From Armatimonadota bacterium (GTDB taxonomy: Bacteria > Armatimonadota > UBA5829 > DTJY01): a stretch of 64,000 nt of DNA. The notes below the pieces were generated by a model, which saw nothing but the letters and a program-made list of their open reading frames with translations, had not been told where the DNA came from and made no database searches. The stretch covers positions 1-64,000 of the forward strand of contig JAGONM010000018.1 of the NCBI GenBank assembly GCA_017993055.1, read 5' to 3'. Numbering within the stretch: position 1 is the stretch's first letter; the number at the start of each line of letters is the position of its first letter. This document shows positions 30,187-49,117 of the stretch, in pieces. Both the position numbers and the translations under genes were made by a program.

Positions 30187-30236
30187 GCGCCCCCATCCTC
30201 GCAGTATTTCCAGGTTTTTTCGCGCAAACACGCGAA

Positions 30237-30253
30237 TTGGCACGAATCTTGCA
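30237..30253 (+). promoter_or_regulatory. Sigma-54 promoter A
   Basis: TTGGCACGAATCTTGCA: exact TGGCACG-N4-TTGC match, with GG at 30239-30240 and GC at 30251-30252; predicted start about 30264. A perfect dyad TTCGCG-N6-CGCGAA (30219-30236) lies immediately upstream and may bind a regulator. Confidence 0.9.
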
Positions 30254-30263
30254 GGTACTCTTA

Positions 30264-30333
30264 CTTGGAAAAGCAACATCTTTTTCTCCTTCCTTACTAG
30301 GCCCGCGGGCATCACCCGCGGGTTTTCTTTTTG
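30264..30333 (+). ncRNA. Predicted sigma-54-dependent small RNA, copy A
   Basis: About 70 nt between a sigma-54 promoter and an intrinsic terminator (CCCGCGGG-CATCA-CCCGCGGG, 30302-30322, then TTTTCTTTTT). It holds the core GGAAAAGCAACATC followed by a pyrimidine stretch TTTTTCTCCTTCC. No reading frame with a ribosome site is present. The core can fold as a short GAAAA/TTTTC hairpin. CTCCTTCC is complementary to Shine-Dalgarno sequences, so antisense repression of translation is plausible. Confidence 0.78.
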
Positions 30334-30433
30334 TCCGGCGGCGGCCGGGAATCGTGCGTACAGCCATGGCATTTCGTGAACATCTAGTGTCCAACGGATG
30401 AAATATCGAACATATTTGACCCTATCGCGCGGA

Positions 30434-30450
30434 TTGGCACGAATCTTGCA
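30434..30450 (+). promoter_or_regulatory. Sigma-54 promoter B
   Basis: TTGGCACGAATCTTGCA, identical over 17 nt to promoter A, with GG at 30436-30437 and GC at 30448-30449; predicted start about 30461. Confidence 0.9.
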
Positions 30451-30460
30451 GGCAATCCTA

Positions 30461-30531
30461 CCTGGAAAAGCAACATCTTTTTCTCCTTCCTTACTAAGAC
30501 CCGTGGGCATCACCCGCGGGTTCTTTTTTTG
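30461..30531 (+). ncRNA. Predicted sigma-54-dependent small RNA, copy B
   Basis: About 71 nt, with the same core as copy A (GGAAAAGCAACATC, then CTCCTTCCTTACT). The terminator is CCCGTGGG-CATCA-CCCGCGGG (30500-30520) followed by TTCTTTTTTT. The C-to-T change in the 5' arm keeps pairing as a G-U wobble, which argues for selection on structure rather than simple duplication. Confidence 0.78.
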
Positions 30532-30568
30532 TGCGCGGGCCCCGAGTATTTTCGCCCCAAGCGCGCTT

Positions 30569-30585
30569 TTGGCACGATTCCTGCA
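30569..30585 (+). promoter_or_regulatory. Sigma-54 promoter C
   Basis: TTGGCACGATTCCTGCA, with GG at 30571-30572 and GC at 30583-30584; spacing identical to A and B. CTGC replaces TTGC at the -12 element. Predicted start about 30596. Confidence 0.85.
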
Positions 30586-30595
30586 GTATATCAAC

Positions 30596-30661
30596 TCGGA
30601 AAGCAACATCTTTTCTCCTTCCCAATTGCCTTCCGGCCCAGAGCCGGGAGGCTTTCTTTTT
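30596..30661 (+). ncRNA. Predicted sigma-54-dependent small RNA, copy C
   Basis: About 66 nt. The core is GGAAAGCAACATC then TTTTCTCCTTCC; both the A run and the T run are one base shorter than in A and B, keeping the hairpin paired. The terminator differs in sequence (GCCTTCCGGC-CCAGA-GCCGGGAGGC, 30628-30652, then TTTCTTTTT) but not in position. The conserved core against a replaced terminator points to the core as the functional part. Confidence 0.75.
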
Positions 30662-30677
30662 GCCGCCGGCCCCTCGG

Positions 30678-30754: not shown

Positions 30755-32002
30755 ATGAGCGAGATTACGGCTGCGAGACCGGAGCGCAGGGGCACGCTCT
30801 GGCTGATCCTGATCGTCGCCTGGCTGGGATGGATGTTCGACGGCATGGAGATGGGCATATACTCCGTGCTGGCGCACCCGGCGCTGAAGGAACTCCTGAA
30901 CACGACCGACAAGGGGGTCATCACCCAGTACGCGGGCTACATGTTCGCCCTCTTTCTGCTCGGCGCGTCGGCCGGAGGGTTCATCTTCGGGCGGCTCGGC
31001 GACAAGATCGGCCGGGTCAAGACGATGATCATCACCGTCCTGCTCTACTCGGTCTTCACCGGCCTGAGCGCGCTCTCGCAGACCCCGTGGCAGCTCGGCA
31101 TATTCCGGTTCGTCGGCGCGATGGGCCTCGGCGGCGAGTGGGGCCTGGGGGTCGCGCTGGTGATGGAGTCGTGGCCGAACGCGAAGCGCCCGGTCCTGGC
31201 GGGACTGCTGGGCAGTTCGGCGAACGTCGGGTTCCTGATCAGCTCGCTCGTCAATCTCAACTTCGGCTTCCTCGGCTGGCGGCTCATCTTCTGCATAGGG
31301 CTCGTCCCGGCTCTGCTCTCCATCCCGATCCGGTTCCTGGTGAAGGAGCCGGAGAAGTGGGTCAAGGCGAAGGAACGGGGAGAGCGGCCCGACCTCAAGC
31401 AGCTTTTCGAGCCCGCTCTGCGCCGGAACACCATCATGGCGTGCCTGCTGTCATCGGTGGCCGTGATCGGCACGTGGGGCGTCTTCCAGCTCATCCCGAC
31501 GTGGGTGAACACGCTGGTCGGCGGCGCGGCGACCCACGAGCGCGCGGTCGCGGCAATGTGGATGGCGTTCGGGCAGATCGCGGGGTCGTTCCTCGGAGGT
31601 CCGGCGGCGGACTGGTTCGGGCGGCGGTGGTCCTACGCGATCTTCTGCGTCACCAGCCTCGTATCGGCGATCCTCGTGTTCCAGTTCTCGGACGGGTACG
31701 GCATGAGGCTGCTGGTCTTCGCGGCGGTCGCCGGGGTCTTCACGACCAGCTTCTTCGGGTGGCTGCCTCTCTATCTGCCTGAGCTGTTCCCGACGCGCAT
31801 CCGCTCGACCGGCGAGGGGATCTCGTTCAACATCGGGCGCGTCGTGGCGGCGGCGGCGATCCTGATGGGATTCGGCCAGCTACCGAAGCTGTTCGGCGGA
31901 TCGTTCGAGCGCGCCGGCAGCACGATGGCGTTCATCTACCTGATCGGCCTGATCCTGATCTGGTTCGTGCCCGAGACGAAGGGCCGGGCGCTGCCGGAGT
32001 AG
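30755..32002 (+). CDS. MFS transporter of the metabolite:H+ symporter type
   Basis: 415 residues from ATG 30755, which has GAGGAG a few nt upstream; the longer upstream frame crosses the sRNA units and was rejected. Twelve membrane helices are predicted. The N-terminal GWMFDGMEMGIYS, the loop 2-3 motif GRLGDKIGRVKTM and the LGGEWGLGVALVMESWP segment in helices 4-5 are typical of the aromatic-acid and metabolite H+ symporter families. ELFPTRIRSTGEG lies in the second half. The substrate cannot be told from sequence; an organic acid or sugar is likely. Confidence 0.88.
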   Translation: MSEITAARPERRGTLWLILIVAWLGWMFDGMEMGIYSVLAHPALKELLNTTDKGVITQYAGYMFALFLLGASAGGFIFGRLGDKIGRVKTMIITVLLYSVFTGLSALSQTPWQLGIFRFVGAMGLGGEWGLGVALVMESWPNAKRPVLAGLLGSSANVGFLISSLVNLNFGFLGWRLIFCIGLVPALLSIPIRFLVKEPEKWVKAKERGERPDLKQLFEPALRRNTIMACLLSSVAVIGTWGVFQLIPTWVNTLVGGAATHERAVAAMWMAFGQIAGSFLGGPAADWFGRRWSYAIFCVTSLVSAILVFQFSDGYGMRLLVFAAVAGVFTTSFFGWLPLYLPELFPTRIRSTGEGISFNIGRVVAAAAILMGFGQLPKLFGGSFERAGSTMAFIYLIGLILIWFVPETKGRALPE

Positions 32003-48985: not shown

Positions 48986-49091
48986 AAAGAAAAAGCCCGG
49001 TCGAATGCTCGACCGGGCTTATAATGTGCGCCGGTAGCCAACCGGCAAGATTGCCACGAAAGGAAAGAAGAAAATTCGTGTAATCACCCGG
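48986..49091 (-). ncRNA. Predicted sigma-54-dependent small RNA, copy D
   Basis: About 106 nt on the minus strand. After the promoter come a hairpin CACGAA...TTCGTG whose loop is pyrimidine-rich (TTTTCTTCTTTCCT), a second hairpin GCCGGT-TGGCT-ACCGGC (about 49045-49029), and a 12-bp terminator AAGCCCGGTCGA/TCGACCGGGCTT (49020-48993) with TTTTTC. No coding frame with a ribosome site. The exposed C/U-rich loop recalls the CTCCTTCC stretch of copies A-C, though the primary sequence differs. Confidence 0.75.
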
Positions 49092-49102
49092 TAGATGTAC
49101 TT

Positions 49103-49117
49103 GCAAGAATCGTGCCA
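49103..49117 (-). promoter_or_regulatory. Sigma-54 promoter D
   Basis: On the minus strand TGGCACGATTCTTGC (49117-49103), an exact match to TGGCACG-N4-TTGC; predicted start near 49091. Its core sequence is the same as the promoter at 15674-15691. Confidence 0.9.

Follow-up and report, generated by a model that had tools for sequence, protein, structure and literature searches.

The window analysed here is a stretch of 64,000 nucleotides from an Armatimonadota contig, and direct reading of its sequence at about 30237-30662 reveals three units placed back to back, each composed of a sigma-54 promoter, an RNA of ~70 nt and an intrinsic terminator. The features of this array, together with a more distant unit of the window, are as follows.

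30237-30253 (+): sigma-54 promoter of unit A, TTGGCACGAATCTTGCA, from sequence reading and conserved in relatives; predicted +1 at ~30264
30267-30293 (+): core of unit A, with the hairpin GGAAAAG[CAACAU]CUUUUUC and the seed CATCTTTTTCTCCTTCC at 30277-30293
30300-30333 (+): terminator of unit A, from sequence reading and folding
30434-30450 (+): sigma-54 promoter of unit B, TTGGCACGAATCTTGCA, from sequence reading
30464-30490 (+): core of unit B, with the seed at 30474-30490
30497-30531 (+): terminator of unit B, related to that of unit A and with a G-U pair within the stem
30569-30585 (+): sigma-54 promoter of unit C, TTGGCACGATTCCTGCA
30598-30622 (+): core of unit C, with one base fewer in each of the A and T runs and the seed at 30607-30622
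30628-30661 (+): terminator of unit C, whose sequence is unrelated to the terminators of units A and B
48988-49117 (-): probably another sigma-54 small RNA (sRNA) unit, read from 49117 to 48988, with a sigma-54 promoter, a pyrimidine-rich core that has diverged, and a strong terminator (TGGCACGATTCTTGCA ... TTTTCTTCTTTCC ... terminator); weak model match, E 1.2e-4

The common core is GGAAAAGCAACATCTTTTTCTCCTTCC in units A and B and GGAAAGCAACATCTTTTCTCCTTCC in unit C. The preliminary description of this DNA had reported three tandem promoter/RNA/terminator units with a common core, A and T runs that shorten together in copy C, a copy B terminator stem kept through a G-U pair and an unrelated copy C terminator in the same place, and direct reading confirmed all of this, with one base lost from each run. 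Each RNA is predicted to fold into a 5' hairpin, followed by single-stranded CUCCUUCC and then by the terminator (folding z = -4.1, -3.1 and -2.7 for the three RNAs against dinucleotide shuffles), and the anti-Shine-Dalgarno (anti-SD) sequence that had been described as exposed is this CUCCUUCC, which is unpaired in every predicted fold. Throughout the 3.7-Mb host genome (G000) the core occurs three times, always in the array, and the reversed pattern does not occur; the three-unit array is not a chance arrangement. Nor is it the whole set in the host, which has extra copies elsewhere, and a fourth copy of the sRNA unit lies on another contig (G000:C13). Other features of the window include two PEP-CTERM genes, at 12862-11657 (-) and about 62386-61217 (-), and a c-di-GMP-I-GGC riboswitch at 9262-9164 (-; 61.7 bits), which is located ~430 nt before an ORF of 791 aa (8730-6355, -) resembling a membrane HD-GYP/GAF/GGDEF protein.

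A sequence-only model was built from four units, the three of the array and one from a sister genus whose base composition is quite different; there the core was found once, preceded by a sigma-54 promoter and followed by an unrelated terminator of its own. The preliminary description had tied its proposal to the conservation of such promoter-core-terminator units among relatives; the model search found them in 21 of the 28 genomes of this Armatimonadota class, and none of the ~263 other genomes among the 291 searched in the phylum had a unit at E<=1e-4. The homologues carry their own sigma-54 promoters, with the -24/-12 elements at a fixed distance 5' of the RNA; their terminators are often unrelated and their flanks variable, and arrays of two or three copies recur in G002, G003, G014, G017 and G022. 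Because the weaker model matches lean partly on the promoter, they were checked by direct reading, and they share TTGGCACG-N4-TTGC, after which come a 5' arm rich in purines, in most cases CAUC, then a run of U and CUCCUUC(C). Different lineages preserve the 5' hairpin with different base pairs (GGAAAAG/CUUUUUC, GGGAAAG/CUUUCCC, AGAAAG/CUUUCU and GAGAAAA/UUUUCUC), and 28 of 42 units are more stable than their own shuffles by >1 sd; the hairpin is poorly kept in families f2, f4 and f5, and the seeds have diverged in f4 and f5. A strict promoter-plus-core pattern matched 14 loci in 257 Gb of prokaryote genomes, with 12 belonging to the sRNA family and two due to chance; by inferred taxon, most of the 12 come from Armatimonadetes/Armatimonadota (one from UBA5829) and the others from MAGs. 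Pattern matches in Coatesbacteria and Lachnospiraceae were rejected as chance because the core is absent. The earlier remark that the family is unrecognised was borne out: no Rfam family was at threshold for the units, permissive E-values included, and Qrr gave no covariance match even at E<=10. RF00519 (suhB/mmgR), an alphaproteobacterial sRNA, matched weakly over the core and terminator, with 23.2, 22.9 and 15.4 bits versus a gathering score of 41 bits. The units constitute a real sRNA family, specific to one Armatimonadota class and absent from Rfam.

RpoN, which the host genome encodes, was over the cut-off in 22 of the 28 class genomes, and 20 of these 22 have the sRNA. Among the RpoN-less genomes (G001, G010, G011, G013, G021 and G025), the sRNA is present in one of six, G011, which is 69% complete, and is absent from the complete ones (Fisher p ~0.001 for the co-occurrence). 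The genomes without PEP-CTERM and exosortase are exactly G001, G010, G013 and G025, and all four also lack RpoN and sRNA. Hfq is encoded in 24 of the 28 genomes, including the host (G000:C22:60557), and was not found in G007 and G020, two draft genomes that bear the sRNA. The units are very probably transcribed as sRNAs under the control of sigma-54.

It might be supposed that the units are cis-acting leaders or attenuators of the downstream gene, an MFS transporter at 30755, instead of trans-acting RNAs, given that unit C ends ~90 nt 5' of the MFS ORF and that a non-sigma-54 copy of the core on G000:C60 precedes a PEP-CTERM gene. Such a role is highly improbable, however, as three complete terminators stand in series, the surroundings of the units differ among relatives, units occur on different contigs in one genome, and no PEP-CTERM gene was found next to the sigma-54 sRNA units. 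Still less credible is an antisense reading in which the conserved stretch would open a small protein (AAGGAGAAAAAG-ATG-TTG-CTT...), for which units A and B do offer a perfect SD-spacer-ATG on the reverse strand: the frame after the ATG is not conserved, single-base changes in the runs distinguish A/B from C and recur among relatives, and certain units no longer have the ATG, whereas the promoter, core and terminator of the + strand stay in register.

If the units act in trans, their core indicates what they might recognize. The complement of the core CAUCUUUUUCUCCUUCC is GGAAGGAGAAAAAGAUG, which comprises an SD, a spacer and a start codon and reads GGAAGGAG-AAAAAG-AUG. The core is more than an anti-SD in that it appears to imitate and extend the anti-SD of the 16S rRNA. 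In several lineages the tract changes and CAU stays a few bases 5' of CUCC, so the complement is still SD, spacer and AUG; some units have lost CAU. A class-wide search for complements of the 17-mer with <=2 mismatches found the sRNAs, core copies behind non-sigma-54 promoters, and gene starts. The three best non-sRNA complements in the host genome are gene starts, and all three belong to PEP-CTERM (exosortase-sorted) genes, a class that accounts for ~1% of host genes (31 over the cut-off, with the gene total estimated from genome size). In the genomes with the sRNA or their close relatives, 27 ORFs of >=100 aa lie at 17-mer sites, and at least 17 of them end in PEP-CTERM; the other 10 comprise three secreted proteins with an unseen C-terminus, three secreted proteins without PEP-CTERM, and four that are neither or lie inside genes. 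TIGR02595 was confirmed in seven of the eight ORFs tested. The predicted unpaired seed is complementary to start regions of unlinked genes, as would be expected of a trans-acting anti-SD sRNA.

Targets were assessed by pattern searches and gene samples. Because the 17-mer gene set had been chosen by complementarity, PEP-CTERM genes were re-sampled by their C-terminal domain and scored by the energy of the duplex that each start region would form with the seed. The mean energy was -16.6 kcal/mol for the host's own PEP-CTERM genes (n=32), -11.3 for other secreted proteins (n=17) and -10.9 for the remaining genes (n=59), so that the PEP-CTERM genes pair better than either group (p=0.001 and p=5e-6, respectively), with some start-codon error remaining in these values because starts were set by a simple rule (signal peptide and SD, spacer ignored). 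None of 300 shuffled seeds separated the gene sets as well as the unit A seed. Such values might also be obtained if the RNAs were general anti-SD sRNAs that repress all mRNAs combining a strong SD with an A-rich spacer, the enrichment of PEP-CTERM being incidental. PEP-CTERM start regions are generally purine-rich, and part of the complementarity could therefore be shared composition; at least 3 of the 27 class-wide matches, moreover, are secreted proteins without PEP-CTERM. We nevertheless regard a general action as unlikely, since the PEP-CTERM difference of the unit A seed remains after regression on 16S anti-SD energy and other secreted proteins stay at background. Moreover, the PEP-CTERM genes of G021, which has ~30 of them along with exosortases and neither RpoN nor sRNA, do not pair: their start regions are at background (-10.3, n=10, p=4e-5) and the genome has no 17-mer match, a contrast that is supporting and not decisive because G021 may differ for other reasons.

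A further point against general action comes from the PEP-CTERM genes that have sigma-54 promoters of their own. Seven of the 32 host genes have a near-perfect one 40-146 nt upstream, and these pair poorly (median -11.8), compared with a mean of -17.2 for those without such a promoter; in relatives the means are -12.4 for 11 sigma-54-driven genes and -16.9 for the others. The contrast gave p=6e-4 when pooled and p=0.011 when labels were permuted within genomes, and was not significant in the host genome alone (p=0.12), where L237 is an exception. SD strength goes in the opposite direction, the sigma-54-driven genes having SDs at least as strong despite their poor pairing. PEP-CTERM mRNAs are thus, in our judgment, likely to be the main targets of the sRNAs. 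The preliminary description had proposed that multicopy sigma-54 sRNAs silence translation through an anti-SD sequence, and every computational test supported this, the repression itself being inferred; two findings go beyond it, namely that the predicted pairing runs through the spacer to the AUG and is aimed at PEP-CTERM mRNAs, and that it largely spares the PEP-CTERM genes driven by a sigma-54 promoter.

The core is also found behind other promoters, on G000:C60 in the host and in relatives, for example on G004:C4, with the GGCACAAACAACCAUCUUUUCCUCCUUCC form occurring in family f3 (17-mer search); the seed therefore seems to serve more than one regulator. Loci L104 (G000:C60, the copy 5' of a PEP-CTERM gene), L105, L106 and L112-L117 have the same core and terminator layout with a GATAAT- or TATAGT-like -10. 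In G004, a sigma-54-promoter/hairpin/terminator unit with an unrelated core (L003 1321-1440) lies directly upstream of an sRNA copy, and a matching unit, also with an unrelated core, is situated upstream of the first sRNA copy of G002:C9. With core copies behind other promoters in several genomes, a pool of interacting RNAs is conceivable, in which the sRNAs would be activators or sponges that bind an antisense RNA, another sRNA or a protein. This is quite improbable, because pairing over SD and AUG together excludes the ribosome in known examples of such geometry, and no conserved partner RNA was seen.

Repression of PEP-CTERM translation would require a sigma-54 activator that turns the sRNAs on. 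Of the host's response regulators, one (G000:C14:77475) is close to PrsR; it scores 396 bits and is below the TIGR02915 cut-off of 502.6, a value reached in none of the 28 class genomes. A GAF/PAS histidine kinase precedes it, a PilZ response regulator follows, glycosyltransferases and RmlD lie around it, and the same contig carries an exosortase at a distance of 25 kb. G001, G010, G013, G021 and G025, all without RpoN and sRNA, lack relatives of this regulator as well. Among 12 of the host's own upstream regions, neither a common activator site nor a convincing dyad was found upstream of the sRNA and PEP-CTERM sigma-54 promoters. The weak shared word CAGGTTT(T), present in 5 of the 12 (shuffled maximum 2-4) and often ~26-36 nt before the -24 box, is a possible activator or bending site, with weak statistics.

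What is observed in the sequences, that is, the units, their conservation, their complementarity, the identity of the complementary genes and the contrast between genes with and without sigma-54 promoters, can be explained as follows. The sRNAs would be transcribed by sigma-54 and act in trans, probably with the assistance of Hfq, and their core would pair with the SD, spacer and AUG of PEP-CTERM mRNAs and block translation. The activator is probably the PrsR-like response regulator adjoining the GAF/PAS histidine kinase in the polysaccharide locus. When it is on, sigma-54 would directly transcribe the PEP-CTERM subset whose start regions largely escape the sRNAs, and the sRNAs would silence the remaining PEP-CTERM genes. 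The core being a near-perfect complement of PEP-CTERM start signals, one set of surface proteins is probably shut off when another is turned on. To this whole explanation, in which class-specific sigma-54 sRNAs block PEP-CTERM translation and sigma-54 activates other PEP-CTERM genes, we assign a probability of roughly two-thirds. The stricter version, a two-way switch in which a single sigma-54 signal directly activates some exosortase substrates and silences the rest of the sorting class via the multicopy sRNA, is more tentative, at somewhat less than even odds. If it is true, no earlier RNA-level control of a PEP-CTERM regulon is known to us; the switch would be conserved across a class of uncultured bacteria and would provide a testable logic for bacterial surface remodelling, in that one sigma factor would switch on part of a sorting class and silence the other part. 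With target class, seed and controls specified, an E. coli reporter test is possible without culturing the organism. An sRNA family is added in Armatimonadota, and PEP-CTERM/exosortase systems would gain a post-transcriptional layer.

Searches by title and abstract found nothing relevant on PEP-CTERM with small RNA and no sRNA study for the phylum. The type of mechanism is known, from Qrr-like control and an anti-SD seed, and no description was found of the sequence family, the target class or the proposed wiring. PrsK/PrsR/RpoN has been proposed to drive PEP-CTERM genes in Proteobacteria (PMC1569441), and RpoN dependence has been shown for one PEP-CTERM gene (PMC9850573). The present system resembles it in the protein class, the sigma factor and the presence of a kinase and an NtrC-type regulator in a polysaccharide locus (PMC1569441, PMC9850573), but PrsK/PrsR/RpoN is a system of transcriptional activation whose promoter motif was reported only for Proteobacteria, whereas here sigma-54 would also repress via RNA. 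As in Qrr of Vibrio, several near-identical sRNA genes occur per genome, each of which has a terminator of its own and a sigma-54 promoter of consensus type, YTGGCACG-N4-TTGC (PMC3352281). An NtrC-type response regulator turns the Qrr RNAs on, and they act in trans together with Hfq (PMC3352281); the RNAs described here differ in that they belong to another phylum, their seed complements an entire SD-spacer-AUG, and their predicted targets form a surface-protein sorting class. With alpha-r14/NfeR1 of alpha-rhizobia they share an unpaired, ultraconserved anti-SD motif, which in that sRNA masks start regions and so represses a number of mRNAs (PMC10746234). In NfeR1, three hairpins each hold a CCUCCUCCC motif, and LsrB and NtrC control the RNA (PMC10746234), in contrast to the one CUCCUUCC per RNA, the single longer seed reaching the AUG and the sigma-54 promoter of the present family, which works like Qrr and alpha-r14/NfeR1 and is a member of neither.
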